In this document: positions 10,750-54,161 of the stretch, piece after piece
Position numbering within the stretch: position 1 is the stretch's first letter
How the letters are laid out: each line of letters begins with the position of its first letter
Assembly: GCF_000758665.1 (NCBI RefSeq)
Contig: NZ_CP009285.1
Location: 2,294,001 to 2,358,000 of the forward strand
Direction of reading: 5' to 3'
DNA: 64,000 nucleotides
From: Paenibacillus borealis
GTDB taxonomy: Bacteria > Bacillota > Bacilli > Paenibacillales > Paenibacillaceae
The notes under the pieces: generated by a model
The model's database searches: none
What the model was told of the DNA's origin: nothing
The model's input: only the letters and a program-made list of their open reading frames with translations
Translations under genes and position numbers: made by a program

Positions 10750-10926
10750 CAATGTTGTACATTGTGCAGCATTGACTCCCGGATAACCAGGTGTGGAGGA
10801 GGATTGTTGTATGAAATACAAGAATTGTTCTGCTAAGCATTTTGGAGGAGGAAAATGTTGTCTTTTATACAACAATTGTGAAATATGGCCGAGATTATGA
10901 TGGAGATGTTGTATTACGTGCAGGAT
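10750..10926 (+). repeat. 177-bp multi-core intergenic element, copy 1
   Basis: One of three copies in the window (others at 23961-24137 and 53985-54161, both on the opposite strand). It carries four ~23-bp near-palindromic cores starting at 10751, 10803, 10854 and 10905, spaced 52, 51 and 51 bases. The best core reads AATGTTGTAC-ATT-GTGCAGCATT. A Shine-Dalgarno GGAGGAGG at 10795-10802 sits 8 bases before an ATG (10811) starting MKYKN; here that frame ends after 29 codons, apparently because one base is missing compared with the other copies. The rest of the 414-base gap (10624-11038) shows nothing recognisable. Confidence 0.75.
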
Positions 10927-11038
10927 TTCAAATAATCTGCTTTTAAAATAGGAAATGGCATGGTTATAGTTTCTCTTTTTGCCCTACGCACATGCCTATA
11001 TAATTTGGACATAAGTTCAGGGAAGGGTGTGACGTTAC

Positions 11039-11989
11039 ATGGCCGCGATTCCGCAGAACGAGCAGACTCTGCACCGGTTCATTTCAGTCCTTTGTTCACC
11101 GCTGTCCATTGTTCAATATGTCCTTACGAAGCGTGATGCTCTAATATACAAGCCTCCGGGAGAACTGATTCCTGTGCAGGATGCCTGCCTTCATGCCCAT
11201 GTCATGGGGAAGGGAGAGCACACCGTAATTCTGGAAGCGGGTATGGGGGGATCATCGCTGGACTGGGCGCTGGTGCAGCCGGAGCTGTCACTGTATGCCA
11301 AGGTGGTCTCGTATGACCGCGCAGGCCTGGGCTGGAGCGGGAGCAGCAGCCAGCCGGAAAGCGCAACCTGCAGGAAATACGTCAGGGAGCTCAGAGAACT
11401 GCTGAAGGCAATGGACTGCAAGCCTCCATATATTCTGGTGGGCCATTCCTATGGAGGTATGATTGTGAGATGCTTTGCGGGGGAATATCCGGATGAAGTG
11501 GAGGGGCTGCTGCTGGTTGATGCTGTACATGAGAGCCGTTATCTTACGGATGAAATGAGCAACCGCCGGAAACAGCAGCGGGAGGCGAACAGGCGGCAAT
11601 ATAAGCTGGGTTATCTGTTGGCGCCTGCGGGGATTCCCCGCTTGCTTAGGAGGCCTGTAGGAGGACGGAGACTCCCGGCAGCTATCCAAAAAAACGCCTC
11701 GAGTCTGGGATACCGCAAGAGTGCATACCGGGCCGCATATGCCGAGCTGCTCTGCGCGGAAGAGAGTGCCCTGCAGCTGAAGAAGGCAGAGCCGCTTAGC
11801 AGTAAGCTGCCTATTACGGTGCTTAGTGCCGGCAATCCGGACGAAGAATGGCAGCAGGGGCAGCAGCGCTTAGCCAGGTTGACCCCAAACGTACAGCATA
11901 TTACCGAAGAAGACCCCCGGCACTCCATCCCCATACACAAGCCGGAGACTGTCGTTAAATATGTCACGGAATTATTGAACACATTATAG
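11039..11989 (+). CDS. Alpha/beta hydrolase
   Basis: A 316-residue alpha/beta hydrolase fold protein. The oxyanion region HTVILEAGMGGSSLDWALVQP, the VVSYDRAGLGWSG strand, and the nucleophile elbow GHSYGGM are visible; the late acid (VLSAGNPDEEW region) and a histidine (DPRHSIPIHKPE) complete a plausible Ser-Asp-His triad. There is no clear signal peptide, though residues ~14-28 are fairly hydrophobic. ATG 11039 follows GGGAAGGGTGTGACGTTAC. Substrate unknown; the family covers esterases, peptidases and haloperoxidase-like enzymes. It is a single-gene unit ending in a strong hairpin. Confidence 0.85.
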   Translation: MAAIPQNEQTLHRFISVLCSPLSIVQYVLTKRDALIYKPPGELIPVQDACLHAHVMGKGEHTVILEAGMGGSSLDWALVQPELSLYAKVVSYDRAGLGWSGSSSQPESATCRKYVRELRELLKAMDCKPPYILVGHSYGGMIVRCFAGEYPDEVEGLLLVDAVHESRYLTDEMSNRRKQQREANRRQYKLGYLLAPAGIPRLLRRPVGGRRLPAAIQKNASSLGYRKSAYRAAYAELLCAEESALQLKKAEPLSSKLPITVLSAGNPDEEWQQGQQRLARLTPNVQHITEEDPRHSIPIHKPETVVKYVTELLNTL

Positions 11990-12009
11990 CCAGCGGATCA
12001 GACGAATAA

Positions 12010-12050
12010 AAGGCAGTACCCGCAGAACATTCTGCAGGTACTGCCTTTTT
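12010..12050. terminator. Bidirectional terminator between hydrolase and GH130 genes
   Basis: AAGGCAGTACC pairs with GGTACTGCCTT around a CGCAGAACATTCTGCA loop that is itself self-complementary. TTTTT follows on the plus side and AAAA precedes, so it can serve the convergent mannan operon as well. Confidence 0.88.
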
Positions 12051-12088
12051 GCTGGTACAGCCGGCTTGCACAACCTGTACACAGACTG

Positions 12089-13264
12089 CTATTGCAGCTG
12101 GAGATTCCGGTCGATCAAGGTAATGCGCTGCTGGACACAGGCATAAGAGCGGAGCGGATCTTCAGGAGTATTCAGCACATAATCAAGCATTTGATCCACA
12201 GTAGTGGTGACCACATGAATCCGGGTGTCGGAGGAAGCGTAGTAGATGTAGATGTCCCCGTTGTCCCGGGCGATTACGCCGTTGCAGAAGACAACGTTGG
12301 ATACATCGCCGACGCGTTCTTCGCCGTCCGGAGCGATGAAGTGTCCGCCGGGGGCATGGGTAACCTTGTTAGGCTCATCCAGATCGGATAAGAACGCATA
12401 CAGTACATAGCGCAGTCCGGCAGCAGTGTTGCGTACCCCATGGGCGATATGCAGCCAGCCCTGAGGTGTTCTGACCGGTGCAGGGCCCTGGCCGTTCTTC
12501 ACTTCCTTGATCGTATGATAGTAACGCTGATCCATAATGGTTTCGCTGGTAATTACAGCATTCTCAATGGTATCGGACAGTCCCCAGCCGATGCCGCCGC
12601 CGGAGCCTGCATCAATGAACCCGTCCTGCGGGCGGGTGTAGAAGGCATATTTGCCGTCTACGAATTCAGGATGCAGCACCACATTACGCTGCTGGGCTGA
12701 GCCGGTCTTGAGATCGGCCAGGCGTTCCCAGGTCTTCAGGTCCCTGGTGCGGGTGATGCCGCACTGGGCAACTGCGCTGGACAGATCACCGTGAAGGGCA
12801 GCGGGATCTTTGCGCTCGGTGCAGAACAGGCCGTAGATCCAGCCGTCGGCATGTTTCACCAGACGCATATCATAGACGTTGATATCCGGATCTTCAGTTT
12901 CCGGCAGGACAACCGGATGATCCCAGAAGCGGAAGCCGTCTACACCGCTGTCGCTCTCGGCTACAGCGAAGAAGGATTTACGGTCATTCCCCTCAACACG
13001 GGCAATAATGTAGAACTTGCCGTCCAGCTCAATGGCCCCTGGATTGAAGATGCCGTTCACACCGATCCGTTCAGCGAAATAAGGATTGGTTGCGGGGTTG
13101 AAGTCATAACGCCAGATCAGCGGCGCATGCTCTGCTGTGAGCAGCGGGTATTGATAACGGTCATAAGTGCCGTTGCCAAAGGATACCTTCTCATTTTTGC
13201 GGGCAATCAGTGATTCATATCGTTCCGTCAACTGCGCCTTGCGTTCTGTGAATAATGTGCTCAT
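12089..13264 (-). CDS. GH130 phosphorylase, 4-O-beta-mannosyl-glucose phosphorylase type
   Basis: A 391-residue glycoside hydrolase family 130 protein with the five-bladed propeller motifs [39 protein letters not shown] and the catalytic DMRLVKH segment. Length and N-terminal [15 protein letters not shown] match subfamily 1, whose members phosphorolyse beta-1,4-mannosyl-glucose to mannose 1-phosphate plus glucose. No signal peptide, so cytoplasmic. It is the last gene of a minus-strand operon, overlapping the epimerase stop by one base (TAATG). An epimerase next door that makes its substrate strongly supports the assignment. Confidence 0.9.
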
Positions 13265-14478
13265 TATTTAGTCTCCTTTGAGGTTGCTGTCAGTCTTCCG
13301 ATCATTTCAAAGCAGGCTCTGCTGTTATGATAAGGGCATTTCCAGGCACTGACCTTGGAAGCATGCGCAAGCGGCTGCAGTGACTCATCAACAGCCCAGA
13401 ACCACTCGCCTAGCTTATGATCGACCATGTAACTGTTAGTGAACGTCCAGGCGGCCTCGGCAGCATCACGGAACCGCGCATCTCCGGATAGCTGATAAGC
13501 ATTATAGAAGCCGACAATGGCTTCAGCCTGCGGCCACCAGTCTTTATTCTTATCCAGCAGCCCGTTATGATCGGCTTCATTCCAGATGCCGCCGTCAGCG
13601 TCAATGCCTTCAGCTAATGTAGCTTCGGCCATGGACAGTGCAACTGCCCGCACCCGGTGCAGCAGCTCTTCATCCCCAAGCACTTCAGCCGCTTCGACCA
13701 GCAGCCAGCTGCCTTCGATATCATGGCCATAGGAGATATGGTCTGACTTGATATTCCACTCTTCATCCAGGAACAGATGGAAATGCTTGCCTTCCTTATC
13801 AATGATGTGGAGGAGCATGACCTCAATCAGCTCAGCCAGCCGGACCCGAAGTTCCTCGGATTTCCACACGCGGTACAGGCCGGTGTAGCCTTCGAGCACA
13901 TGCAGATGGGTGTTCATCGATTTCTTTTCGTTCATATCCTTGCTGCTCAGACTTAAGTTTTCTGTCATCTGCCACTGCTCAGAGAGGGCTTCGATATAAC
14001 CTTTATATAGCGGATCATAGCCATATTGCTCAACCAGACGGAACAGTGCCACAGCCTGATCAAGCGCATCCTGGCGTCCGGTAGCATGATGGAACTCTGC
14101 CAGGGCATAGATGGCGAAAGCCTGCCCGTAGATCTGTTTTTTACGTTCGGAAGGAGCACCCAGCGCATCTACCATCCAGTAATAGCCGCCATATTCGCTG
14201 TCGGTGAAATATTGAGTCAAATAGGCGTGGGCCCGTTCCGCCATAGTCAGGTATTCAGCGTCGCCATATATGCGGTAAGCGCTCGCAAAGGTCCACAGAA
14301 TCCGTGCGTTCAGCACCAGACTTTTTCCGGCCTCCGGATTGATATTCATCTGGTTGTCAATTTCTCCTACAAATCCGCCATGCTCTTCGTCCAGGGTATG
14401 CTTCATCCAAAAGCTGAGGATATTGTCTTTCAGCTCTGCTTCCATTTCATTCCGCCAAATCAGGGGCGATTTCGTCAT
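13264..14478 (-). CDS. AGE family epimerase, cellobiose/mannobiose 2-epimerase-like
   Basis: About 404 residues with the (alpha/alpha)6-barrel pattern of N-acylglucosamine/cellobiose 2-epimerases. Seen are [70 protein letters not shown], and [20 protein letters not shown], matching the histidines and tryptophans that line the active site. It would turn beta-1,4-mannobiose into mannosyl-glucose for the GH130 enzyme. ATG 14478 is chosen because GGAG lies 11 bases upstream; a GTG at 14490 would touch the ribosome site. It lies 45 bases after the GH113 gene in the same operon. Confidence 0.9.
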
Positions 14479-14523
14479 ATGGTGGTTCACTCCTATAAAG
14501 TAATGATAGATATTGAAAACCGT

Positions 14524-15486
14524 CTACAAGGAAGGCGAAGATTTCGTCTTGTAGCTGTAATACGCTTCTATAATGCCTGCCGCCGGTTTGCCGTACATGC
14601 AGTAATCATCGTTGTCTGCTGCTTCGTCCAGCGCATAGAGCTTGGCCGGCCAATCCCACAGCATGAAGCCCTGTACCCAGTCACGCTTCCGGCAGGCGCC
14701 GAACATGGCAAGGTAGAACCGGCTTTGCTCTTCAGGATCCGGGCCGCTCTTGAGACTCCAGTCATTCGGAATGGCGGCACTTCCGGTCCGGCTGGGGCAT
14801 CCCGCTTCCATGAAGAAGAAGGGCTTGCCATGGCTTGTGACCACCGCTTCAATCCGGTCCAGCTGCATTTCCCAGTCCTGCTCGGGGTAATAGCCGCTGG
14901 AAGAGATTACATCAAGGGCATCCCACCAGCTCACGTTATCCTCCTGATACTTATCGCAGTTATAGGTGATTACACCGCTGTACACTTTGCGGACCTCGGC
15001 AATCAGGACGCGCCATTCTGCGGCCCGCCGGTCCGCCTGCACCAGCTCACAGCCGACACAGAACATCTCGCAACCGCTTTCTTCGGCAAGCACAGCATAA
15101 TGGAGGATAAAAGCAGTATAGGAACGGAACCACTCCGACCATTTCGGCTCGCAGGGAACATCCTTGTCGAAGAAGTTGATATGAGCCCGCCACGTGCCGT
15201 CTGCACAATTCACAATCGGCTTCAGGCAGACCTTCAGATCAAGTGACTTTGCTTTGCGGATGGCCCAGCATACCTCTTCATCGCTGACCGTAGGTTCCGC
15301 CCAATAGGGAATCTCTGTGGATTGCGGGGTAGCTTGAAGCGCGCTGAACGCAATGGCGGTCCAGTTGGCACCGGTAGCTGATTTCATCAGCTCCATGGAA
15401 GATTCCGCTGCTTCATTAGCCCAGGTTCCCCGTCTGCCCATGAACCCCCAGGTTACGCCTCCGACATACTCGTCTAGCAGTGACAT
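14524..15486 (-). CDS. GH113 beta-mannanase/mannosidase-like, intracellular
   Basis: A 320-residue protein matching the GH113 (clan A) beta-mannanase pattern: YVGGVTWGFMGRRGTW at the N-terminus, MFCVGCELVQ with the likely acid/base Glu147, and KPFFFMEAGCPSR with the likely nucleophile Glu227, plus FMLWDWPAK near the end. There is no signal peptide, so it probably trims mannooligosaccharides after uptake. It is first in the operon with the epimerase and GH130 genes. The family is small and some members act mainly as exo-enzymes; exact specificity is not readable from sequence. Confidence 0.85.
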   Translation of the reverse strand: MSLLDEYVGGVTWGFMGRRGTWANEAAESSMELMKSATGANWTAIAFSALQATPQSTEIPYWAEPTVSDEEVCWAIRKAKSLDLKVCLKPIVNCADGTWRAHINFFDKDVPCEPKWSEWFRSYTAFILHYAVLAEESGCEMFCVGCELVQADRRAAEWRVLIAEVRKVYSGVITYNCDKYQEDNVSWWDALDVISSSGYYPEQDWEMQLDRIEAVVTSHGKPFFFMEAGCPSRTGSAAIPNDWSLKSGPDPEEQSRFYLAMFGACRKRDWVQGFMLWDWPAKLYALDEAADNDDYCMYGKPAAGIIEAYYSYKTKSSPSL

Positions 15487-15551
15487 GCGGTTACCTCGCT
15501 TTACAATGGAATGAATAAATATAATGCAAAAACAAAAATAATAATTTATTT

Positions 15552-15596
15552 GTATTTTGTTATTATGTTATTGTTATTTAAAGATAACAAGAATAC
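15552..15596. promoter_or_regulatory. Operator-like inverted repeat between the divergent mannan units
   Basis: GTATTTTGTTAT (15552-15563) and ATAACAAGAATAC (15584-15596) form a near-perfect dyad across ~20 AT-rich bases in the 262-base region shared by the GH113 operon and the divergent GH130 gene. A GCGTTATAA stretch at 15603-15614 also has cre-like character. Either could coordinate both units. Confidence 0.35.
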
Positions 15597-15748
15597 AATT
15601 AAGTTATAACGCTTTTTATGAATGTTTTCAAGGGGGAATTGAGCTGGAAGCCTGAAACGGCCTCTATGTATGTCCATTCCGCGGAATGGTTGGAATCATC
15701 TATCCACTGCAGCCTGCGCTGCGCAAACCTGAAGGGAGACTTATTGAT

Positions 15749-22389: not shown

Positions 22390-23775
22390 ATGCAGACTTT
22401 GCTGCTCTGGCTATTTTACATCTCGACCTTTTATGCTTTTATTCCCGGAATGATCAGCCGTATATTTGGTTATCGCGTCTTTCGCAAAGGAATCGGGCGT
22501 ACGGATTATGGCCTGACCTTCGATGATGGACCTGACCCGCATTATACACCGTTATTGCTGGATCTGCTTAAGCGTTATGGAGCTAAGGCGACATTCTTCG
22601 TGGTCGGTGCCCACGCTGAAGCGCATCCGGAGATTATTAAGCGTATGCACGATGAAGGGCATCTTATCGGAATTCACAATTATGTGCACAAGACGAATTG
22701 GCTGATGCGTCCGGCAACGGTGAGGAAGCAGATTCAGCGGACCGATGATATTATCTTCAAAATAACCGGCGAGCGCAGCACCTACTACCGTCCGCCGTGG
22801 GGAATTGTGAACCTGTTTGACTTCTCCAAGCGCCGTCAGGTGCAGATTGTACTATGGTCGGCCATGTTCGGCGACTGGAAGGAGAAGCTTGGAGCGGAAC
22901 GCCTGACCGACAAGCTGATCTCCAAGCTGGATCCGGGTGAAGTCATGCTGTTGCATGACTGCGGTACAACGCTCGGTGCCGATCCGCATGCCCCTGAGCA
23001 TATGCTGATTGCCCTGGAGCGGATGCTGCAGGAAGCGGATAGACGGGGGCTGCGAAGTATCCGGATTGATGAGATGATCAAGGCGGTGCAGAGCTCACCG
23101 ATCACAAGGCTGTCTTTCGGCAAACGGTTGGTTGTCGGCTTATGGCTGGCCTGGGAACAGGTATTCCAGCTAATGTTCCAGATCAAGACGATCTCTCCGG
23201 CCGATCCGTTCCTGCATTACAGGCTGCGTAAATATCAGGGGAATCCCGTGCAGATGGATAACGGTGAGACATTAAGCAAAGGCGACAAGATCATTGAGCT
23301 GCATATCGACAACAGGCAGCTGTTCGAGCTGGGCATTCATTCCCGTTCGTCGGCACAGCTCGCGATCCGCATGATCCGCCGCATGGAGAAGGATCTGCCG
23401 GTGCTGGCGGAGCGGATTGCCGGTGATGTGGATCTGGCTGAAGCCAAGGCACTCTATGGTGTAAGCCTGCTGAACCGTGGGCCCGAGAAATTCGGGTTCA
23501 TGGTTCTGGATCTGCCAAGCGGCCTGTTCGCAAGCTCTACCAAATTCTATCTCAGTATTCTGCTCAGCGTTATTCATCCGTCAGGCGGAGCGAGGCTTAA
23601 AGTCCGCAGTGAGCTGCTGGTACCCAAAATGATGCTGATGCCCGTGTCGCAGCTGCTTGATCAGATGAATCAGCAGCGGCCGCAGAAGCCGGTGAAGCAA
23701 CGGGAACGTGTGCGGGAAGAGGAACGGTCGATTGAAGCTGAACTAGAACTGCCCGGAGCAACGGTTGTTCATTGA
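22390..23775 (+). CDS. Polysaccharide deacetylase with C-terminal extension
   Basis: 461 residues. An N-terminal membrane helix (~1-20) is followed by a NodB deacetylase domain (~38-225): TFDDGPD (D45, D46), HNYVH metal ligands (H96, H100), YYRPPWG, and VMLLHDCG. The enzyme would remove N- or O-acetyl groups from a cell-wall or secreted glycan on the outer face of the membrane. Residues ~240-440 form an extra domain that I do not recognise (FELGIHSRSSAQLAIRMIRR), ending in a charged tail. ATG 22390 follows AAGCGGGGAATTTAC. The gene stands alone with its own terminator. Confidence 0.9.
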   Translation: MQTLLLWLFYISTFYAFIPGMISRIFGYRVFRKGIGRTDYGLTFDDGPDPHYTPLLLDLLKRYGAKATFFVVGAHAEAHPEIIKRMHDEGHLIGIHNYVHKTNWLMRPATVRKQIQRTDDIIFKITGERSTYYRPPWGIVNLFDFSKRRQVQIVLWSAMFGDWKEKLGAERLTDKLISKLDPGEVMLLHDCGTTLGADPHAPEHMLIALERMLQEADRRGLRSIRIDEMIKAVQSSPITRLSFGKRLVVGLWLAWEQVFQLMFQIKTISPADPFLHYRLRKYQGNPVQMDNGETLSKGDKIIELHIDNRQLFELGIHSRSSAQLAIRMIRRMEKDLPVLAERIAGDVDLAEAKALYGVSLLNRGPEKFGFMVLDLPSGLFASSTKFYLSILLSVIHPSGGARLKVRSELLVPKMMLMPVSQLLDQMNQQRPQKPVKQRERVREEERSIEAELELPGATVVH

Positions 23776-23960: not shown

Positions 23961-24137
23961 TCCTGCACTAAATACAACATTCTGCTCATCAAAACCGCCA
24001 TAATCCGGAATTGTTGTACAAAAGGCAGCATTTCGCCTTCTTTCGGCGGCTTAGCAGGAAGATTATTGTATTTCATACAACAATCCTTCTGAACAACCCT
24101 TTATCGGTGAATCAAAGTTGCAGAGCGTACAACATTT
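23961..24137 (-). repeat. 177-bp multi-core intergenic element, copy 2
   Basis: Aligns over its full length with copies at 10750-10926 and 53985-54161. Read on the minus strand, cores begin at 24136, 24084, 24032 and 23981 (spacing 52, 52, 51). The third core is inverted relative to the others. A minus-strand frame starting at ATG 24076, with AGAAGG exactly 8 bases upstream, runs 61 codons (MKYNNLPAKPPKEGE..., then LPFVQQF and MLYLVQEF) to 23891. It could be a small gene or a chance frame. The flanking gap sequence (23776-23960, 24138-24213) holds only terminators. Confidence 0.75.
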
Positions 24138-24302: not shown

Positions 24303-25988
24303 TTAGATCTTCAGCACGCCGCCCTTGCTTGCATTGGTAACCAGCTTGGAGTAACGGGCCAGGTAACCGGTCTTCACCTTCGGCTCGAAATCTTTCCAGC
24401 CGCTGCGGCGGACAGCCAGGACTTCTTCTTCAACCAGCAGCTCGATCTTGCGGTTGATCAGATCCAGTTCGATGATGTCGCCATCCTCGACAAAAGCAAT
24501 CGGTCCGCCCTCAGCCGCTTCCGGCGAGATGTGGCCGATACTGATTCCGCGGGAAGCTCCGGAGAACCGTCCGTCGGTGATCAGGCCGACCTTGGCGCCA
24601 AGACCCATACCGACGATCTGCGAAGTCGGTGCCAGCATTTCCGGCATACCCGGTCCGCCCTTCGGACCTTCATACCGGATAACAACGACATGGCCTTCTT
24701 TGACCTTGCCGTTCGCGATCCCTTCCAGCGCCTGCTCCTGGGAGTCGAAGCAGATGGCAGGTCCTTTGTGGTAGCCGCCAACGGAAGCATCTACGGCACC
24801 AACCTTGATGATGGAGCCTTCCGGAGCCAGGTTGCCGTAGAGTACAGCCAATCCGCCTACTGGGGAATAAGGGTTGTCTATTGTATGAATAACTGACGTA
24901 TCCTGAATCTCATGACCGGTGACATTCTCGGCCAAAGTCTTGCCGGTTACGGTCATGCAGTCGCCGAAGATGGCGCCCGGCTTCTTCAGCAGCTCGTTCA
25001 GCACAGCGCTGACGCCGCCCGCCCGGTCCACATCTTCGATGAAGATATCGGAGGCAGGAGCCAGCTTGGCCAGGTAAGGTACGCGGTTGGCTACTTCATT
25101 GATGCGCTCCAGCGGATAGTCGATTTCAGCTTCCTGAGCCAGTGCCAGGGTATGCAACACAGTGTTGGTGGAGCCGCCCATCGCCATATCCAGCGCAAAG
25201 GCATTGTCCAGTGATTCATGGGTTACGATATCACGCGGTTTCAGATCCAGCTTGATCAGCTCCATGAGTTGGGTAGCTGATTTGCGGACGAAATCTCTGC
25301 GTTCTTCCGCAACTGCCAGAATGGTGCCGTTGCCCGGGAGAGCAAGGCCCATAGCTTCAGCCAGACAGTTCATGGAATTGGCTGTGAACATACCCGAACA
25401 TGATCCGCAGGTTGGACAGCCGAATTGTTCCAGTTCAAGCAGCTCAGCGTCATTGATCTTGCCGACCTGATGGGCGCCAACGCCTTCAAACACGGAAGTC
25501 AGAGATAGCTTCTTGCCTTTGCTGTCTACGCCGGCCTTCATCGGTCCGCCGCTGACGAAGATCGTCGGGATGTTGACGCGCAGTGCGCCCATCATCATAC
25601 CCGGGGTGATTTTATCACAATTGGGAATGCAGACCATTCCATCGAACCAGTGAGCGGAAACCATCGTTTCCACAGAATCGGCTATGATCTCGCGGCTTGG
25701 CAATGAATAACGCATTCCGATATGTCCCATGGCAATGCCGTCATCTACGCCGATGGTATTGAATTCGAACGGAACCCCGCCGGCTTCACGGATGGCTTCC
25801 TTTACAATCTTGCCGAATTCCTGCAGATGCACATGACCCGGTACAATGTCGAGATAGGAATTGCAGACTGCGATAAACGGCTTGCCGAAATCCTCTTCCT
25901 TAACGCCGGCAGCACGCAGAAGACTGCGGTGTGGTGCGCGGTCAAAGCCCTTTTTGATCATGTCTGAACGCATTTTTTTGTTTGCCAT
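24303..25988 (-). CDS. ilvD: Dihydroxy-acid dehydratase
   Basis: A 561-residue IlvD/Edd family enzyme, third step of valine, leucine and isoleucine synthesis (2,3-dihydroxy acids to 2-keto acids). It shows [16 protein letters not shown], the Fe-S cysteine segments [10 protein letters not shown] and [32 protein letters not shown], and [20 protein letters not shown] near the end. ATG 25988 with GGGGGAAAT upstream is chosen over farther in-frame codons, and matches the usual MANKKMRSD beginning. It is a single gene here, away from other ilv/leu genes. I found no T-box in the leader. Confidence 0.96.
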
Positions 25989-26304
25989 GATGACATTTCC
26001 CCCTAAAAGTATTGTGAGCCTAACCTCTTGGAACGGTGAGAACAAATATAGTGCCGCATTAACGCATTGCAATCCCAAAAGCTGCGTGTCTGCGGTTTAT
26101 AGAAGGAACAAGGTCCAGCTTCTTGCAGTAAACAGAAGTAGGGCGGAGCCGTTTCTATAAAAAACAAGCGGATTGGATACGAACGTTAATAGAGAGTCTA
26201 TCACAAAAAACCTCATTTTTCTACCGGGCAATGTGAAGTTTGTCGCAGTCATCTCCCGGCAGACAGGTGGAAACGGCTACATCGATCATTAAAGGAAATT
26301 ATAC
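25989..26304. other. Leader/promoter region of ilvD, nothing further recognised
   Basis: 316 bases without a credible gene. On the minus strand an AT-rich stretch (TTTTTTGTGATAGACTCTCTATTAACG) near 26185-26215 could contain the promoter. I looked for T-box hallmarks and a leader peptide and did not see them. Confidence 0.4.
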
Positions 26305-33428: not shown

Positions 33429-33429
33429 G

Positions 33430-36153: not shown

Positions 36154-36184
36154 TTGAGCGGTAAACTACGATGCAATGATGTGT

Positions 36185-36479
36185 CCGCCGGAAGTGGGCG
36201 GCAGGAGGGAATAAGGGGCAGAAGTGCCCCTGATTTCGCTGAAAGTGGGCGACGGGAGGAAATGAGGGGCAGAAGTGCCCCAGATTCCGCCGAAATCGGG
36301 CGATGGGAGGAAATGAAGGGCAGAAGTGCCCCTGATTCCGCCGAAAGTGGGCGTTATGGGGAAATTAAAGTGATAAATCCCTCTGATTCCGCCGAAAGTG
36401 GACGGCATGGGGAAAATAAAGGGATAAATCCCTCTGATTCCGCCGAAAGTGGGCAGCATGGGGGAAATTAAAGGGATAA
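36185..36479. repeat. 51-bp tandem array, left half (six units)
   Basis: Units begin at 36185, 36236, 36287, 36338, 36389 and 36440, an exact 51-base period; the last is cut at 36479 by the IS element. Each unit has CCGCC-GAAAGTG-GGCGG or a variant, then a purine-rich stretch and a second palindrome. In units 1-3 the second hairpin is GGGGCA-GAAG-TGCCCC or a near variant; later units have AGGGAT-AA-ATCCCT. The paired change supports a real stem. All frames are largely open, so predicted proteins here are artefacts. Confidence 0.9.
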
Positions 36480-36549: not shown

Positions 36550-36972
36550 ATGAGTGGAACACGGAGAAGCTACAATGAAGAATATAAAAAACAGACCGTA
36601 AAGTATATTCAGGAGCAAACCAAGACGGTGGCGGAACTCGCCCTGGAACTGGACATCCCCGCCAAAACCCTGCACCAATGGCTGGGGAAGTACCGGTCGT
36701 TTCAGAGTGAGCCCATAGCCACCCCAGACAAAGTCAGAGAGTTGGAACGTCAACTGAAGGAACGCGACCAACAGGTGGCAGACCTGACGGAGGAAATGGC
36801 CATCCTAAAAAAAGCAGTGCACATCTTCAGCAACCCAGTTTATAGAAGATCATCGCTCCGAGTTCCCAGTGGAGAAGATGTGCAACGTCTTTCAGGTATC
36901 ACGGAGCGGTTATTACAAATGGAGAACAGCGAAGCCCAGCCCCCAAGCCGCCCGCAAAGCGTTACTGCTTAA
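36550..36972 (+). CDS. IS3-family transposase OrfA
   Basis: 140 residues. The N-terminus (RRSYNEEYKKQTVKYIQEQ) begins a helix-turn-helix with AELALELDIPAKTLHQWLGK, followed by a leucine-zipper-like coiled coil (RELERQLKERDQQVADLTEE) and EMAILKKAVHIFS, where OrfA proteins usually end. Here the frame runs ~37 codons past that point, overlapping orfB. An A7 run at 36807-36813 is where -1 slippage normally occurs in this family. ATG 36550 has GAGGAGGTGCCCAC upstream. Confidence 0.88.
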   Translation: MSGTRRSYNEEYKKQTVKYIQEQTKTVAELALELDIPAKTLHQWLGKYRSFQSEPIATPDKVRELERQLKERDQQVADLTEEMAILKKAVHIFSNPVYRRSSLRVPSGEDVQRLSGITERLLQMENSEAQPPSRPQSVTA

Positions 36973-37699
36973 GCGGATTACCTATCATTTTCACGACTCG
37001 CATGGTCGTTACGGTAGCCCCAAAATTAAGGTTCTCTTGAAGCGTGAGGGGTACAAGGTAAGCGAACGCACAGTAGGAAAGTACATGAGAGAACTGGGCC
37101 TGCGCTCCTGTGTCGCGAAGAGGTTTCGCGTACACACGACCGACTCTAACCATCCTTTGCCCATTGCCCCTAACTTGCTGAACCAGCAATTCCAAACCGA
37201 AAAGCCAAACCAGGCGTGGGTGGCAGATATTACTTACATTCCCTGTCGGGAAGGGCGGATGTACTTGGCGAGCGTGCTGGACCTATGCACCCGGGAGATC
37301 GTAGGCTGGCGGCTGGGCGACCGGATGACCACAGACCTCGTACAGGGCGCTCTAGACGATGCCTACCAAGCGAAACGCCCCGGGAAGGGCTTGATTCACC
37401 ATTCGGATCGAGGCTCGCAGTATGCCTCTGCAGACTACCGGGGACGCCTGGAGAAGTACCAGATGACTGCAAGTATGAGCCGCAAAGGGAACTGTTATGA
37501 TAACGCCTGTATCGAATCTTTTCACAGCCTCTTGAAAAAAGAGTTTGTGTACTGGACTCGATTTAAAACAAAGAAGCAGGCCTATGATTCCATCTACCAA
37601 TACATTGAATTTTTCTACAACTGTAAACGAATCCATGGGGCACTGGGTTACGTATCTCCGGTTCAGTTTGCAGCAACATTTAAGCGGAAAACCGCTTAG
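36869..37699 (+). CDS. IS3-family transposase OrfB (DDE integrase core)
   Basis: 276 residues from ATG 36869; the same frame is open back to 36809 and encodes FIEDHRSEFPVEKMC, the usual start of the OrfB part. The rve integrase core shows the first Asp in WVADITYIP, the second in GLIHHSDRGSQYAS, and the Glu in NACIESFHSLLKKE, with the preceding HTH_21 segment YGSPKIKVLLKREG. All catalytic residues are intact. The frame lies +1 to OrfA, whereas -1 is usual, so a fused OrfAB could not be made by simple -1 slippage. Confidence 0.9.
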   Translation: MEKMCNVFQVSRSGYYKWRTAKPSPQAARKALLLKRITYHFHDSHGRYGSPKIKVLLKREGYKVSERTVGKYMRELGLRSCVAKRFRVHTTDSNHPLPIAPNLLNQQFQTEKPNQAWVADITYIPCREGRMYLASVLDLCTREIVGWRLGDRMTTDLVQGALDDAYQAKRPGKGLIHHSDRGSQYASADYRGRLEKYQMTASMSRKGNCYDNACIESFHSLLKKEFVYWTRFKTKKQAYDSIYQYIEFFYNCKRIHGALGYVSPVQFAATFKRKTA

Positions 37700-37729
37700 G
37701 TTCACGTCTACTTTCTTGACAGAGGTCCA

Positions 37730-38051
37730 TAAATCCCTCTGATCCCGCCGAAAGTGGGCGGAATGGGGAAATCAAAGGGATAAATCCCTCTGATCCCGCC
37801 GAAAGTGGGCGGTACGGGGAAAATAAAGGGATAAATCCCTCTGATTCCGCCGAAAGTGGACGACATGAGGAAAATAAAGGGATAAATCCCTCTGATTCCG
37901 CCGAAAGCGGGCGGCATGGGGAAATCAAAGGGATAAATCCCTCTGATTCCGCCGAAAGTGGACAGCATGGGGGAAATTAAAGGGATAAATCCCTCTGATT
38001 CCGCCGAAAGTGGGCGGTACGGGGAAAATAAAGGGATAAATCCCTTTGAAT
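37730..38051. repeat. 51-bp tandem array, right half (six units)
   Basis: It continues the array after the IS: the remainder of the split unit, then units at 37745, 37796, 37847, 37898, 37949 and 38001. All spacings are 51 except one of 52 caused by an extra G. All units here have the AGGGAT-AA-ATCCCT type second palindrome. The last unit ends at CCCTTTGAATTT near 38050, followed by non-repeated sequence before the alcohol dehydrogenase promoter. Confidence 0.9.
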
Positions 38052-47903: not shown

Positions 47904-49608
47904 AATTTCAGGAATCGCGGCTTCCGCAGGTATTGCAGTAGCCCGTGCCTTTATCCTGGAACATCCGGACTACACCATTACCAAAACAGCAGTCACTGAT
48001 GTAGACGCTGAGCTTGCGAAGCTGAATGACGCCCTGGATAAATCCAGAGGCGAACTGCAGAGCATCAAAGAGCGTACCCTGGCTGAGCTTGGTGAGAAGA
48101 AAGCGGAGATCTTCGAATCCCATCTGCTGATTCTTGATGATCCCGAGCTGATCACGCCTGTAATGGATAAAATCCGTGAGGAATCGGTTAATGCGGACTA
48201 TGCACTAAATGAAGTGGCTAACCAGTTTGTAGAAATGTTCCAGAACATGAAGAGCGCGTACCTGCAGGAACGTGCTGCGGATATGCGTGACGTAACCAAA
48301 CGCGTACTGAACCACCTGCTTGGCATTCACTACGTGAGCCCGGCAGAGATCAGTGAAGAGGTTATCGTAATTGCACTGGATCTGACGCCTTCGGACACCG
48401 CTCAGCTTAACCGTAATTTCGTTAAGGGCTTCACGACTAACATCGGCGGACGTACCTCCCACTCGGCGATTATGGCCCGTTCCCTGGAGATTCCGGCTGT
48501 AGTTGGAACCAAGAATGTATTGTCCCTGGTGAAAGCCGGCGATCTGATTATTGTAGACGGCCTGAACGGTGATGTGCTGATCAACCCGACGGAAGCGGAG
48601 GTAGCAGAATACACCGCGAAGCAGGAAGCTTATAACCTGCAGATTGCCGAGTGGAAGAAGCTGCGTGATGAACCCACCGTATCCGCTGACGGCAAGCATG
48701 TTGAGCTGGCTGCGAATATCGGTACACCAAATGATGTAACGGGTGTTATCGAGAACGGCGGAGAAGGCGTAGGTCTGTACCGTACTGAATTCCTGTATAT
48801 GGGCCGCGACAAGCTGCCTTCCGAAGAAATTCAGTACAATGCCTACCGTACCGTGCTTGAGAACATGCAAGGCAAGCCGGTAGTTGTGCGTACACTGGAT
48901 ATCGGCGGCGACAAAGAGCTGCCTTATCTGGATCTGCCGAAGGAAATGAACCCGTTCCTCGGCTTCCGTGCCATCCGTCTGTGTCTGGACCGTCAGGATA
49001 TCTTCCGCACCCAGCTGCGGGCCTTGCTCAGAGCCAGTGCCCACGGCGATCTGCGTATTATGTTCCCGATGATCGCTACGCTTGGTGAATTCCGTGCAGC
49101 CCGTGATTTGCTGCTGGAAGAGAAGGCCAAGCTGCGTGAAGAAGGCAAGGAAGTATCCGATAACATCCAGCTGGGCATCATGGTTGAGATTCCTTCGACA
49201 GCTGTGCTGGCTGACCAGTTCGCCAAAGAAGTAGATTTCTTCAGTATCGGTACCAATGACCTTATTCAATATACAATGGCTGCGGACCGTATGAATGAAC
49301 GGGTATCCTACCTGTATCAGCCATATAACCCGGCGATTCTGCGTCTGGTCAAAATCGTCATCGATGCTGCACACGCCGAAGGTAAATGGACCGGCATGTG
49401 CGGTGAAATGGCCGGAGATTCAACGGCTATTCCTCTGCTGCTGGGTCTTGGCCTGGATGAATTCAGTATGAGTGCAACCTCCATTCTGCCGGCACGCAGC
49501 CAGATTTCCAAGCTTTCTGCTGCTGACATGAAGGAAATGGCTGGCCAGGCGCTGCAGCTCGGCACTGCCGAGGAAGTAGCAGCACTTGTGCAGAGCCGTG
49601 TGAATTAA
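47896..49608 (+). CDS. ptsI: PTS enzyme I (phosphoenolpyruvate-protein phosphotransferase)
   Basis: A 570-residue enzyme I that passes phosphate from PEP to HPr. The active His189 lies in [13 protein letters not shown]; the HPr-binding helical domain precedes it, and the PEP-binding barrel has [39 protein letters not shown] and the catalytic Cys in [12 protein letters not shown] 47896 overlaps ptsH by eight bases. Terminated at 49662-49694. Confidence 0.98.
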
Positions 49609-49661
49609 TTCGTTTAGGGGTTTAATCTGTTTGAGGCAATTCCACTTTTCCAACTACTTTA

Positions 49662-49694
49662 GCCGGTCTCCGATATAGGGGGCCGGTTTTTTTG
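49662..49694 (+). terminator. Terminator after ptsI
   Basis: GCCGGTCTCC and GGGGGCCGGT pair around GATATA (with a small mismatch), followed by TTTTTTT. Confidence 0.85.
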
Positions 49695-49790
49695 ATGTAT
49701 AAGAACAAATGTACTTCAGCAAGAACGGAACCGCCTTTTCTTGCAGCATTTTATATAATGAGGCCATTACTTCCGAAGGGCGGAACCATT

Positions 49791-51032
49791 TTGCAGAAGT
49801 TCAGTGCCTCACAGCTTTATTTGTTTATGGTTTTTATGATGTCTTTAGCAGGCAGCATTATATTTACAACGTATAGTATTTATTATGTTACCAAGCTTGG
49901 ACTAAGCCCGTTTCAGCTGGTACTGGCTGGAACGGTTCTGGAGATAACAGTGTTGGTGTCCGAAGGAATTACAGGTGTTGTTGCGGATACATATAGCCGT
50001 AAGCTGTCGGTTATTATCGGAATGTTCGTACTGGGAAGTGCTTTTGTGCTGGAAGGATGTATTGTCTGGATGATGCATCCGGCCTCCATGCTGCCTGCAT
50101 TTGCCTGGCTGATTATGTCCCAGATGCTGTATGGTATCGGCTGGACGTTTGTCAGCGGGGCGGACACGGCCTGGATTGTTGACGAACTGGATGAGGAGCA
50201 GACGGGTGGACTTTTTATGCGTTCCAAAATATTTGCGCTAACTGCGTCTCTGCTGGGCATCGTTGTCAGTGTAGGATTATCACTGCTTGCGCCTAATATG
50301 CCGTTTCTGGCAGGAGGCGCTGTCTATTTTATACTTGGGCTGGTATTGATCCGTTATATGAAGGAAACGGGCTTTATCCGGCGTGAGCGTGAGCCGCACA
50401 CCTCACCAATCCGTGAACTGGGCAAGACCTGGGTAAGCGGCGTATCCGTACTCAGACATCACCCGCTGCTTCTGCTGCTGACCGTTGTAACATTATTTAA
50501 CGGGGCTGCGTCTGAAGGGTATGACCGCCTGTGGCAAATCCACCTGATTGATGAAATCGGCTTCCCGGAAGCCTCCGTGTCAATGGCGGTATGGTTCGGC
50601 CTGATCAGCGCAGCGGCTACAATTTTGGGGATGCTGGCCGTGCGTTTTGCCGGGAAAAGAATGGACCTGCTCCTGGAACGAAAGGTCTCTGCCACTTTGT
50701 TCATACTGACCTGTATCCGCATGGGCTGCATCCTGCTGCTTGCGCTTGCGCCGAATTTCACGGCCGCGATCTTTGCGGTGCTTCTCCTGGGGGTGGCCGG
50801 CTCCGTGAGCGATCCTATCTACACTACCTGGCTGAACTCGAAGCTTCCAAGCCGGAACCGGGCCACAGTCCTGTCCATGATCAGTCAATCGGATGCACTT
50901 GGCCAGTCCGCAGGCGGTCCGGTTGTAGGTTATATAGGCAGCCGGTTCTCCATCAGAGCCTCACTTTTGGCTGCAGGCTTCCTGCTGCTACCAGTTATGG
51001 CGTTGTTCGGAAAGGTCATGCGTAAGCGCTAA
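49791..51032 (+). CDS. MFS transporter
   Basis: About 413 residues with 12 predicted membrane helices (YLFMVFMMSLAGSIIFTTYSI, LVLAGTVLEITVLVSEGITGV, and so on) and the MFS loop VVADTYSRKLSVIIG. The second half has SDPIYTTWLNSKLPSRNRATVLS, seen in multidrug-type exporters. TTG 49791 after GAAGGGCGG is preferred: an in-frame start at 49692 would lie inside the ptsI terminator, and a TATAAT at 49754-49759 fits transcription starting between them. The substrate is unknown. Single gene. Confidence 0.85.
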   Translation: MQKFSASQLYLFMVFMMSLAGSIIFTTYSIYYVTKLGLSPFQLVLAGTVLEITVLVSEGITGVVADTYSRKLSVIIGMFVLGSAFVLEGCIVWMMHPASMLPAFAWLIMSQMLYGIGWTFVSGADTAWIVDELDEEQTGGLFMRSKIFALTASLLGIVVSVGLSLLAPNMPFLAGGAVYFILGLVLIRYMKETGFIRREREPHTSPIRELGKTWVSGVSVLRHHPLLLLLTVVTLFNGAASEGYDRLWQIHLIDEIGFPEASVSMAVWFGLISAAATILGMLAVRFAGKRMDLLLERKVSATLFILTCIRMGCILLLALAPNFTAAIFAVLLLGVAGSVSDPIYTTWLNSKLPSRNRATVLSMISQSDALGQSAGGPVVGYIGSRFSIRASLLAAGFLLLPVMALFGKVMRKR

Positions 51033-51360
51033 AGGAAGCAAAACAACATTTAACAGTTGTTATTTGGCAGCAGGACAAGTATACTTCCGGGTAGATTCGC
51101 AGCTGTCACCTCATGGGCTTAAATACCCGGGACTTCATGCCGATATAGGATATAGCAAGCAGATGCAATTCTACCCCGTAACCCAAACCTGTGAACATAA
51201 TGTTACATATTATAAGATGAACCGTGAGTAAGAATTCTCAGCAATACCCGCTTGCAGAGCTGTGCAAGTATTAGATTGGTGATATGTGGAAATAGCTTGG
51301 TTGTAATAGAGTGATCAGTTTTCGGCCGGATGGCAGAGAGCATTAGGATGGTGAATATGA
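51033..51360. other. 328-base upstream region of the pullulanase gene
   Basis: No gene seen. It holds AACAACATTTAACAGTTGTT near 51044 (a dyad), and AT-rich sequence (TGTTACATATTATAAG) around 51203 that may be a promoter. No terminator for the MFS gene is obvious. Confidence 0.35.
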
Positions 51361-53760
51361 ATGAGCAGCAATTATATAAATGCAGAGTCAGTAATGGAGA
51401 CCTATGAAGGCAAAGACCTCGGCTTAACGTATTCAGCGGAGTACAGTATGTTTAAAGTCTGGGCGCCGACTGCGTTCGCAGTGTCGCTGGTGCTGTATAC
51501 TACCGGCGGCAATGGCATATCCGCCGGTCATACCGGAGATTACAGGGACAGCGGCCGGATTATCAATATGCAGCGCTCAGACGGCGGGATCTGGGGAGTC
51601 CGGGTTTCCGGTGATCTTAAGGGTAAGTACTATATGTACCGGACTGTATTTGCGGACGGAAGCATTAATGAAGCTGCAGATCCTTATGCAATGGCCGTAT
51701 CTGCTAATGGACTGCGGACGGCGATAATCGATTTGCAGGATACCCATCCGGCTGGTTGGGATCAGGATACTTCTCCTGTTCTGCCGCATCCGGCCGATGC
51801 TGTAATCTATGAGCTGCATGTACGTGATTTCTCGGCTCATGAAAGCTCGGGTCTTACCCATAAGGGGAAATTCAAGGCGTTCACTGAGATAGGACTGCGG
51901 GATTCTGCAGGTCATGCGCTGGGCATTGACCATCTGGCTGAGCTGGGGATTACTCATGTGCATCTGCTGCCGGTATTCGACTTCCAGACGGTGGATGAGC
52001 TGAAGGTTCCCGGTGAAGCACCGCGGTCTCCACTATTCACAGACTACAATTGGGGCTATGACCCCCAGCACTATAATGTGCCTGAAGGCTCATACAGCAC
52101 AGACCCGGCCAGTCCGCCTGTCCGGATCCGTGAATTCAAGGAGATGGTGCAGGCACTGCACAGCCGCGGGATCTCTGTCATTATGGATGTGGTCTACAAT
52201 CATACGTATTCTATTGAACAAGGCCCCTTCCAGCCGCTTGTGCCGGATTATTTCTACCGCCACGACTATAGCGGCCGGCTCTCCAACGGCTCGGGTGTCG
52301 GCAATGAACTGGCTACCGAGCAGCCGATGGTACGCAAATATATCAAAGACTCTTTGTCTTACTGGGCTTCGGAATATCATATCGACGGTTTCCGCTTTGA
52401 TCTGATGGGATTGATGGACAGTGTGACCATGCGCGAGATCACGGAAGAGCTGCGGCTGGAGATCAATCCGGCCCTGCTGCTCTACGGTGAGCCCTGGACG
52501 GGCGGAGACTCTCCGCTTGCCACTAAGACGCTCAAGGGTGTGCAGCGCGGCAAAGGGTATGCCGTCTTCAACGATAACTTCCGCTCTGCCATCAAGGGAG
52601 ACAGTGACGGCTGGGGCAAGGGATTCGCTACCGGAGAATACGGTAAAGAAGGCGCGGTTGCTTCCGGGATCAAGGGAGCGATACATGAGTTCACTGATTC
52701 GCCTGTAGAGACAGTAAACTATGTAACGGCGCATGATAATCTGAATCTGTGGGACAAAATTCTCGCCACTCAGGGATTGCGCAAGGAAGCGCGTTTGCTG
52801 GAGCTTGAGAATGGTAAGCTGCGGGGCGGCGGGGATCTGGAAACCGCCGTGGAGCAGGCTGACCCGTATTTCGCGATTGATACCTTGGATGTGCTGGAGA
52901 ATGAGACCGTACGGCGTTCTCTGCTGGCTAACGGGATCATCCTGACCTCGCAGGGAATACCATTCCTGCACGCCGGGGATGAGCTGCTGCGCAGCAAATA
53001 CGGGGACCATAACAGCTACCGAAGTCCTGACTGCATCAATGCCATCCGCTGGGAGAACAAGAAGAAGTTCATTCCCGTGTTTCAATATTACAAAGGTCTG
53101 ATTGAGCTGCGGCGGGGACATCCGGCTTTCCGGCTGCATGGACGCCAGGAGATTGAGCGCAGTCTTGAGTTCCTGCGCTGTGAGGACGGAGTGGTTGCCT
53201 ATGTGCTGAAGAATCATGCCGGCGGCGATGTATGGAATAATATTGTTGTGATCTTCAATGCTAATATGGGACCGGTAACCCAGTGTCTCCCTGAATCCTC
53301 AGGCTGCTGGAATATCGTCGTTGATCATACCCATGCAGGACCGGAGGCCTTCCGGCAGACAGAGAACGGCAGTATCGAAGTTGCCGGGTTGTCGATGATG
53401 GTGCTCTACGATAAATACGGCGAACCCGAACCGAGATCGAAGGTAGTGGAGGTTCATTATGAACGGCCGGACGGCGATTACCGGGGCTGGAATCTCTGGG
53501 TATGGGGTACAGGCATTCAGGATGGACAACGGGACTTCCAGCACATGGAGGACGGTCACGCAGTAGCGCGGATCGAGGTGCTGCCAGGCACAGCGTCTAT
53601 CGGATATATCCTGCGGCTGAATGACTGGGAAGAAAAAGACAGCATGGGTGACCGCTTCATCGACTGCTCCGGCAGCGCGGATCCGGTTAAGGTAAGGGTC
53701 AGTGACCGCCGGCACGAGCATGAGGGAGATACAGAAGGACCACTTCAACGGAGTAGTTAA
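51361..53760 (+). CDS. pulA: Type I pullulanase, cytoplasmic, with C-terminal carbohydrate-binding-like domain
   Basis: 799 residues. A CBM48-type N domain (~15-120, YSMFKVWAPTAFAVSLVLY) precedes a GH13 catalytic barrel with the pullulanase motif YNWGYDP, DVVYNHTY, nucleophile D347 in GFRFDLMG, acid/base E377 in LYGEPW, and transition-state D459 in VTAHDN. A C-terminal all-beta segment (~700-790; VEVHYERPDGDYRGWNLWVW) looks like CBM41, which normally sits at the N-terminus. There is no signal peptide, so it probably debranches glycogen or imported maltodextrins at alpha-1,6 links. ATG 51361 has TAGGATGGTG upstream. Confidence 0.93.
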   Translation: MSSNYINAESVMETYEGKDLGLTYSAEYSMFKVWAPTAFAVSLVLYTTGGNGISAGHTGDYRDSGRIINMQRSDGGIWGVRVSGDLKGKYYMYRTVFADGSINEAADPYAMAVSANGLRTAIIDLQDTHPAGWDQDTSPVLPHPADAVIYELHVRDFSAHESSGLTHKGKFKAFTEIGLRDSAGHALGIDHLAELGITHVHLLPVFDFQTVDELKVPGEAPRSPLFTDYNWGYDPQHYNVPEGSYSTDPASPPVRIREFKEMVQALHSRGISVIMDVVYNHTYSIEQGPFQPLVPDYFYRHDYSGRLSNGSGVGNELATEQPMVRKYIKDSLSYWASEYHIDGFRFDLMGLMDSVTMREITEELRLEINPALLLYGEPWTGGDSPLATKTLKGVQRGKGYAVFNDNFRSAIKGDSDGWGKGFATGEYGKEGAVASGIKGAIHEFTDSPVETVNYVTAHDNLNLWDKILATQGLRKEARLLELENGKLRGGGDLETAVEQADPYFAIDTLDVLENETVRRSLLANGIILTSQGIPFLHAGDELLRSKYGDHNSYRSPDCINAIRWENKKKFIPVFQYYKGLIELRRGHPAFRLHGRQEIERSLEFLRCEDGVVAYVLKNHAGGDVWNNIVVIFNANMGPVTQCLPESSGCWNIVVDHTHAGPEAFRQTENGSIEVAGLSMMVLYDKYGEPEPRSKVVEVHYERPDGDYRGWNLWVWGTGIQDGQRDFQHMEDGHAVARIEVLPGTASIGYILRLNDWEEKDSMGDRFIDCSGSADPVKVRVSDRRHEHEGDTEGPLQRSS

Positions 53761-53772
53761 GCAATAAATTAA

Positions 53773-53823
53773 GAGCTGTCCTGCATATCTCCCCTTAGTG
53801 GGAGTCGCAGGATAGCTTCTTTA
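53773..53823 (+). terminator. Terminator after the pullulanase
   Basis: AGCTGTCCTGC pairs with GCAGGATAGCT (one bulge) around a loop containing CTCCCCTTAGTGGGAG, followed by TCTTT. Confidence 0.8.
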
Positions 53824-53984
53824 TGCTCCGACTCTTGTTTTCGCTTTTATTGAACTTAAGATTTTAACATAAAACCAATCTTTCACCCAATGTATATTTG
53901 GACTTCCGGGCGGCTGCTGTTGTCGCAGGAATTCCTTGATTCATTCGGCTTTCTGTGGCAGAGATCTGGTAACTTTTTATATAA

Positions 53985-54161
53985 TCCTGCCCATAATACA
54001 ACATTTCCGCCATCATTCCGGCCCAAATCCAAAATTGTTGTATAAAAGGCAGGATTTTATCTTGATCAAGCGGCTTAGCAGGATTAATCTTGTATTTTAT
54101 ACAACAATCTTTCCGAACGCCCGGTTACCATTGAATCTAAGTTGCAAAATGTACAACATTT
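53985..54161 (-). repeat. 177-bp multi-core intergenic element, copy 3
   Basis: Same length as copy 2 and collinear with it and copy 1. Cores on the minus strand begin at 54160, 54108, 54056 and 54005 (spacing 52, 52, 51); the third (AATCCTGCC-N5-ATACAACAATT) is inverted. The frame that begins MKYxN in copies 1 and 2 starts with ATA instead of ATG at 54100, but the ribosome-site-like GGAAAG keeps its 8-base spacing and much of the peptide pattern is retained (PAKP, LPFIQQF, MLY). The rest of the 504-base gap contains the terminator above and no gene. Confidence 0.75.

Follow-up and report, generated by a model that had tools for sequence, protein, structure and literature searches.

Helically phased palindrome arrays dispersed in Paenibacillus borealis and a candidate nuclease-like/winged-helix protein that may read them

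Dispersed bacterial repeats are often regarded as junk or as hairpins. The REP/RAYT systems (REPtrons, REPINs), as presented in two studies, combine high-copy palindromic extragenic repeats with a cognate gene that is flanked by its own repeats; the gene and the repeat coevolve, and the presence of the gene goes with repeat abundance (PMC2817692, PMC3116915). The arrays that we describe in Paenibacillus borealis resemble these systems in being high-copy extragenic palindromes, here with 136 full copies, and in having a cognate gene beside the repeats, here at 45 of 50 loci, but the array protein itself is no RAYT; it appears to combine a nuclease-like domain with a winged helix and is not an HUH transposase. 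The repeats differ as well. REPs are palindromes of 20 to 40 bp that are recognized as single-stranded hairpins, whereas the array unit is about 177 bp long and carries four odd-centered palindromes at five-turn spacing, and the evidence, read from sequence, points to double-stranded binding rather than hairpin recognition. Searches for Y1 HUH transposases (PF01797) gave no matches in the P. borealis genome or in two other array-bearing genomes (G119 and G110); the family was present in 8 of the 12 genomes searched, including array-bearing G083, G094, G086, and G113. We rejected a link to RAYT or IS200 elements because the P. borealis genome has no Y1 transposase.

BOX, RUP, and bcr1-type repeats of Firmicutes are dispersed, intergenic, and about 100 to 200 bp long, and they are modular or RNA-structured. 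The arrays share the dispersed and intergenic placement of these families as they are generally described; we know of no description of them that includes operators arrayed in helical phase or a cognate gene for a nuclease/winged-helix protein. Winged-helix regulators include the BlaI/MecI/CopY repressors, whose operators have the geometry TACANNTGTA. The array geometry differs from this general description, the candidate protein has an extra N-terminal PD-(D/E)XK-like domain, and the Pfam BlaI family had no match in the P. borealis candidate. The candidate resembles the DUF559/MTES_1575 (Vsr-like) PD-(D/E)XK nucleases in giving weak Pfam matches and in conserving D, E-x-D, and H residues, but unlike members of those families it scores under the curated cutoffs. 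A literature search, with most subscription papers outside its reach, found no publication tying DUF559/MTES_1575 nucleases to dispersed phased arrays and none on these repeats or on the candidate protein.

The window, a stretch of 64,000 nucleotides, corresponds to bases 2,294,001 to 2,358,000 of the one-contig, 8,156,808-bp P. borealis genome. The initial annotation described three copies of a 177-bp element there, and whole-length alignment bears out their positions and strands, with 84% mean column identity. Copy 1, a four-palindrome array (10750..10926, plus strand), lies between genes for a LacI-type regulator (9559-10623, plus) and an alpha/beta-hydrolase (11039-11989, plus). Its cores are at 10755..10769 (TTGTACATTGTGCAG), 10807..10821 (TTGTATGAAATACAA), 10858..10872 (the variant TTGTCTTTTATACAA), and 10909..10923 (TTGTATTACGTGCAG), all on the plus strand. 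Copy 2 (23961..24137, minus) sits between convergent genes for a polysaccharide deacetylase (22390-23775, plus) and an IlvD/Edd dehydratase (24303-26078, minus). On the minus strand, it has core 1 at 24118..24132 (TTGTACGCTCTGCAA), core 2 at 24066..24080 (TTGTATGAAATACAA, identical to core 2 of copy 1), core 3 at 24014..24028 (a variant with a CTGCC half-site, placed by alignment 52 bases from core 2), and core 4 at 23963..23977 (TTGTATTTAGTGCAG). Copy 3 (53985..54161, minus) is antisense to both of its neighbors, a pullulanase gene (51361-53760, plus) and an unassigned open reading frame (54265-54855, plus). Its cores, also on the minus strand, are at 54142..54156 (TTGTACATTTTGCAA), 54090..54104 (TTGTATAAAATACAA), 54038..54052 (a variant with a CTGCC half-site, placed by alignment 52 bases from core 2), and 53987..54001 (a variant with a GGCAG right half-site, placed by alignment 51 bases from core 3).

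The measured centers reproduce the core-to-core spacings first reported (52/51/51, 52/52/51, and 52/52/51). The cores had been called mostly near-palindromic, which is correct: the strict pattern YTGYA-N5-TRCAR is matched by 3, 3, and 2 of the 4 cores in copies 1, 2, and 3, and the remaining cores (core 3 in every copy and core 4 in copy 3) are one-letter variants of it. A core-2 18-mer with up to 3 mismatches had 4 matches in the window compared with a mean of 0.01 in shuffled sequences. The window also contains a 51-bp tandem repeat, which was scored as chains of 3 and 6 in 2 of 17 pieces under a strict generic palindrome rule; this rule was put aside, few gene loci having scored under it.

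An nhmmer search of the places retrieved from the 8.16-Mb genome identified at least 136 distinct full-length copies, far above the three in the window (143 full-length matches, 7 of which were opposite-strand readings of the same places). With the best 150 candidates scored, at least 152 genome matches to the sequence profile were found. The core-2 17-mer with up to 2 mismatches matched the genome 203 times, compared with once for a reversed control, and all of the best 40 of 186 BLAST candidates retrieved with copy 2 were array copies. Copy length is very uniform, with no net insertion or deletion relative to the 191-position model in 104 of the 136 copies and a difference within 1 base in 133. 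Four strict cores occur in 62 of the 136 copies, three in 48, two in 25, and one in a single copy. All eight half-sites retain the T and G of YTGYA in 134 or more of the 136 copies. Six of the eight retain the A in 135 or more, and it is weaker in the left half-site of core 3 (74/136) and the right half-site of core 4 (111/136); the Y positions are mainly C or T. Conservation of the linkers across genome copies is moderate. Self-palindromy is weaker in cores 3 and 4 than in the first two cores, and the outer half-sites of the element are imperfectly inverted. Along the chromosome, the 150 places listed use both strands about equally and are spaced as at random (coefficient of variation, 0.98), and neither strand bias nor replichore bias was found among them. 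Given the random spacing and equal strands, we rejected a replichore-polar or origin-linked function.

Gene contexts, assigned with a home-made gene caller, could be classified for 135 copies: 48 were convergent, 38 tandem sense, 41 tandem antisense, and 8 divergent. At the same loci, copy-free intergenic gaps of at least 190 bp were 6 convergent, 39 tandem, and 26 divergent. An overlap of over 20 bp with a called gene was seen in only one of the 135 copies. These counts indicate that the copies avoid promoter regions, favor the 3' ends of genes, and are indifferent to orientation. Terminator-like signals were found in only 11 and 13 of the 136 copies on the two strands, too few for a reading of the arrays as intrinsic terminators, which we rejected; 54 of the 175 3' sides already have such a signal in the stretch separating the gene from the array.

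Palindromes at gene ends could also be hairpins in a transcript, which would make the array a structured RNA such as a 3' untranslated region stabilizer, a terminator, or a small RNA family. Pieces of the three window copies on the element's plus strand fold better than shuffled sequences (z scores of -3.4 to -4.8; -2.0, -2.4, and -5.1 on the opposite strand), and RNAalifold on 32 copies predicted a hairpin at each of cores 1 and 2 and paired cores 3 and 4 with each other in a long one; one-sided G-U changes were numerous. Attractive on those 32 copies, the RNA hairpin reading was unsupported on all 136. T.G oppositions are indeed more numerous than C.A in cores 1 and 2, but the inner pairs do not covary (n = 136; in core 1, TA 62, TG 61, CA 6, CG 6, and TC 1; in core 2, TA 118, TG 11, and CA 7), and nonpairing C.A oppositions occupy core 3 in 103 and 116 of the 136 copies. 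Two-sided change was seen in only 1 of 30 alifold pairs among the 32 copies. The lack of orientation bias relative to genes (38 sense and 41 antisense), the scarcity of terminator-like signals, and the arrays of other genera, in which phasing is retained while linkers are unrelated, also speak against a transcript structure, and Rfam at its gathering score had no matches in the window. Symmetrical half-sites read by a protein would explain the same pairing data, and we consider the RNA reading very improbable.

Selection on the half-sites can be seen at orthologous positions. Matching flanks placed 22 array elements at orthologous sites in Paenibacillus phytohabitans (G083); these were kept from 39 flank matches after removal of elements counted twice because their loci overlap, of matches that were one-sided or paralogous, and of one element truncated at a contig end. 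Mean element identity was about 0.89, and 18 of the 22 elements were nearer to their orthologue than to any other P. phytohabitans copy compared (4 were not). Half-site positions differed at 26 of 875 comparisons (3.0%) and linker positions at 310 of 1,884 (16.5%), while the T/G/A positions differed at only 7 of 525; half-sites thus change about 5 times, and the T/G/A positions about 12 times, more slowly than the linkers of the same element. Because the P. phytohabitans loci (L031 to L053) had been picked by an exact core-2 word, the comparison was repeated with cores 1, 3, and 4 alone, where half-sites differed at 23 of 655 positions. The half-site rate was below the linker rate in 22 of 22 pairs. 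Slower change of half-sites than of linkers at orthologous sites indicates that the sites are under selection in place. The alignment of cores against linkers proposed in the initial annotation therefore found the cores more conserved, and what would have spoken against the arrays, three copies only and no excess of core conservation, is not what the genome holds, an outcome that clearly favors the array finding.

The same comparison bears on whether the arrays are ordinary MITE-like elements that have no host role and owe their conservation to recent spread. The many dispersed intergenic copies, the lineage-specific linkers, the patchy distribution among sister species, and sites at which P. 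borealis and P. phytohabitans differ in the presence of the element all fit such elements. Recency, however, does not account for half-sites that are slow within the same element at the 22 orthologous sites. We also examined 5 sites that have an element in P. phytohabitans and seemingly lack one in P. borealis; none of them was the clean empty site that would be wanted for a mobile element: at one (L052), about 95 bp between cores have been deleted inside the element in the window genome, and at the other four a segment could not be aligned or had been replaced, or just one flank matched. Array loss occurs, clean insertion was not seen at these 5 species-specific sites, and spreading is for that reason unproven. 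Five partial profile matches proved to be full copies that an IS110-family insertion, not a parent element, interrupts in core 3, and an autonomous transposon parent was accordingly rejected. A further copy (L088) is split near the same point by another insert, and other partial copies occur at L089, L090, L092, L093, L156, and L171. Spread and use in place are compatible, and part of the MITE reading may be true; as a full account, we think it unlikely.

Arrays are found in other members of the family as well. Profile matches at E ≤ 0.001 occurred in at least 35 of 100 genomes of the genus with the best 25 candidates per genome scored, and a wider search at 1e-5 with the best 6 candidates per genome gave at least 43 of 394 genomes and 7 of 19 genera of the family. 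For Paenibacillus vortex, 184 "global repeats" have been reported (PMC3012674). In distant members the linkers are unrelated, while the palindromes mostly recur at 51 to 53 bp, some genera having one gap of 62 to 63 bp. An ungapped single-core search gave up to 264 matches in one genome (G303) compared with 6 for the reversed motif. Among 393 listed single-core matches from seven genomes (G177, G182, G340, G343, G345, G200, and G303; a few from G192 were left out), all 118 adjacent distances of up to 75 bp were either 50 to 53 bp (104) or 62 to 63 bp (14). These distances correspond to five and six helix turns, as binding on the same face requires; the earlier reading of the 51- to 52-bp spacing as placing all cores on one helix face is thereby upheld, with phasing kept across genera and shifted by one turn in some. 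The distribution is patchy, with only one of the seven g26 genomes motif-rich and the others at background, and such patchiness among sister species argues against a universal nucleoid protein; a nucleoid-organizing factor, the alternative named in the initial annotation, is conceivable.

Comparison of the open reading frames near arrays of different genomes revealed one recurring protein family. The P. borealis gene is at G000:C1:2659718-2660386, outside the window, and an array starts about 170 bp downstream of it. The encoded protein of about 223 amino acids has weak matches to the MTES_1575 and DUF559 nuclease profiles (20.8 bits against a curated cutoff of 38.2 and 17 to 18 against 20.6), spanning about residues 66 to 132, together with a helix-turn-helix. 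The catalytic-type residues D71, E84, D86, and H91 are invariant in 36 sequences. A structure model compared with PDB folds indicated a winged helix-turn-helix fold at residues 151 to 223; residues 61 to 110 of the nuclease-like domain were modeled largely at low confidence. The fold comparison listed no nuclease structure, but its rows are confined to residues 151 to 223 and are therefore uninformative on the N-terminal half. Searches of the PDB by sequence and of known defense and NCBIfam families gave no convincing match to the protein. We view the candidate as having an N-terminal domain that is probably PD-(D/E)XK-nuclease-like and a C-terminal winged helix. Homologues at 1e-30 occur in 239 of 394 family genomes. 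A plasmid or phage origin was rejected: one distant homologue (37%) is on a 2.7-Mb Paenibacillus replicon and none is in phages, and a core 23-mer is absent from viral contigs. When the neighborhoods of the long G182 array and of the G177 arrays were inspected by eye for a regulator, only chaperonin/tatC-region and sugar genes were seen.

Gene and array are closely linked. A phased array lay within 800 bp of the gene in 45 of 50 family loci, while none was scored at 12 unrelated-gene loci or in 141 overlapping 1.6-kb pieces of the window control; in P. phytohabitans, a phased pair occurred in 7 of 141 pieces, of which some may contain elements dropped as duplicates (L225, L227, and L236). The five loci without an array by this rule were those of G181 and G192, both near contig ends, the paralogue of the window genome itself (L302), and two loci in G374 and G363 (L316 and L318), where spaced palindromes appear under a relaxed look only. 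The best 30 gene loci came from genomes with dispersed arrays or enriched cores in 29 cases (the exception being G350), and a strict YTGYA array adjoined the gene in 26 of them; G122, G121, G177, and G182 have 22, 10, 12, and 8 sites next to it, respectively. Another twenty loci, half of them paralogues from array-bearing genomes and half homologues from genomes that are mostly array-poor, have the same array geometry with partly different half-sites. Arrays are mostly downstream of the gene (35 of 40 NTGYA sides) and mostly on one side only; the mainly downstream position is unlike plain autoregulation. Across genomes, homologues at E ≤ 1e-70 were present in 37 of 41 motif-rich genomes compared with 105 of 394 overall (Fisher 1e-19), where this cutoff and the motif-rich threshold of 12 hits were chosen after the data had been seen and the genome lists were read by hand.

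Half-site sequence and protein sequence vary together. The residue before FRT is D in 7 of 7 TTGGA loci and N or S in 37 of 39 NTGYA loci, counts that are not phylogenetically independent and rest on half-site classes set by hand (seven loci, L284, L304, L306, L307, L311, L317, and L321, fit NTGYA only if any first base is allowed, and L318 was counted as TTGGA despite an array that fails the phasing rule). The exceptions are G018 and G012, which combine NTGYA sites with a D at this position. The TTGGA and NTGYA classes fall in separate clades of the protein tree. Half-site type thus tracks one residue at the predicted recognition helix.

These data also weigh on the idea that the array is the operator of a different nucleoid or regulatory protein and that the nuclease-like gene is merely a frequent neighbor. 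Four motif-rich genomes (G010, G017, G173, and G340) that have no homologue at E ≤ 1e-70, G010 not being among the genomes with a homologue at 1e-30 either, and the array-free paralogue of the window genome would be expected if another protein were the reader. Against a mere neighbor stand the adjoining phased arrays at 45 of 50 gene loci and 0 of 12 unrelated-gene loci, and half-sites that change together with a recognition-helix residue, the classes lying in separate clades. We consider a different reader improbable and the link between the nuclease-like/winged-helix protein and the array very likely.

The initial annotation proposed that the cores are operators in helical phase for a dimeric DNA-binding protein. 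This proposal has strong support, first from the single palindrome geometry in all four cores and further from cross-genus phasing, in-place conservation of half-sites, the adjoining gene family, and the tracking of the recognition helix. As a whole, the evidence is probably best explained by phased arrays of dimer sites and a nuclease-like/winged-helix binder that spread in the manner of REP/RAYT. The array would act as double-stranded DNA, usually with four dimer-binding palindromes on one helix face at intervals of five or sometimes six turns. The product of the gene at G000:C1:2659718-2660386, with its orthologues, is the most likely binder; its C-terminal winged helix would read the half-site, and the protein may bind each palindrome as a dimer, with neighboring dimers on the same face cooperating. 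We propose that the gene and its adjoining array are the founding or source unit, from which arrays with the same half-site may have spread in some species to dozens or more than 100 intergenic sites, for the most part near the 3' ends of genes. The nuclease-like domain may act in this spreading or in cleavage. The dispersed arrays are kept by selection, presumably as binding sites. Bound arrays would form local nucleoprotein blocks at gene ends that could insulate transcription units or shape the chromosome. The unit would work like a REP/RAYT pair in which sequence-specific double-stranded binding and phasing replace single-stranded hairpins and the HUH transposase. We hold these functional steps with far less confidence than the protein-array link and offer them as a doubtful but conceivable course of events.

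The array repeat is defined by two properties conserved across genera, a dimer half-site and five- or six-turn spacing, and what is new is the link between such a dispersed phased repeat and a previously unconnected protein family, its probable reader. The question of what the repeat does thereby becomes one for biochemistry: there is a single small protein and a single DNA code to test, both come in natural variants, and dispersed copies are present in some species and absent from others. A broader possibility, which we find attractive if somewhat short of probable, is that Paenibacillaceae have a double-stranded counterpart of REP/RAYT, in which nuclease/winged-helix proteins, each with its own half-site code and an adjoining four-dimer array, seed copies that mark or partition the genome at gene ends. 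If this is true, the protein-specific codes (NTGYA, TTGGA, and perhaps AGGGA) would represent a family of parallel, self-propagating chromosome-marking systems.

The window contains a 51-bp tandem repeat in two blocks, 5.7 copies at positions 36184-36475 and 6.3 copies at 37729-38049, separated by an insertion sequence (IS) with open reading frames at 36550-36972 and 36869-37699 that appears, by eye, to be IS3-like. The repeat units carry palindromes such as AGGGATAAATCCCT and CCGCC..GGGCGG, and the repeat is another 51-bp phased palindrome array. No further phased AGGGA-type array was found in the 794 kb of P. borealis DNA examined.

An array of palindromes about 1 kb long, with a 52.1-bp period, lies in G182 (C18:1160939-1161895), flanked by groEL-like and tatC-like genes, both named by eye. 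The variant palindrome TGTTGGATTTTATCCAAC has ten matches at ten places on contig C2 of G124 (genus g18), and these are perhaps dispersed TTGGA-type arrays. In G001, a tandem block at 2201-3657 of locus L315, directly 3' of a family gene, is made up of four units, each about 300 bp long and carrying array motifs, at steps of 371 to 395 bp. The gene for a second P. borealis homologue of the protein (C1:3544795-3545436) is adjoined only by a tandem repeat with a 9-bp unit, and none of the known types of phased array lies beside it.

In a subset of P. borealis copies (e.g., L003, L025, L028, and W3, the third window copy), homology between the copies extends into both flanks, to about 100 bp per side, which suggests a longer version of the element.

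Core 3 is split by an IS110-family element in at least five P. borealis copies, located on C1 at about 4.110 (L084), 6.358 (L085), 2.490 (L086), 3.771 (L087), and 4.766 Mb (L091). Four of these inserts are identical, and one is at 96%. A different insert splits the L088 copy close to the IS110 insertion point. REPs are targets of IS110-type elements in other systems, and ISPpu9 is reportedly located in REPs. By analogy with such targeting, the phased-array repeat may be a target of the IS110-family element.
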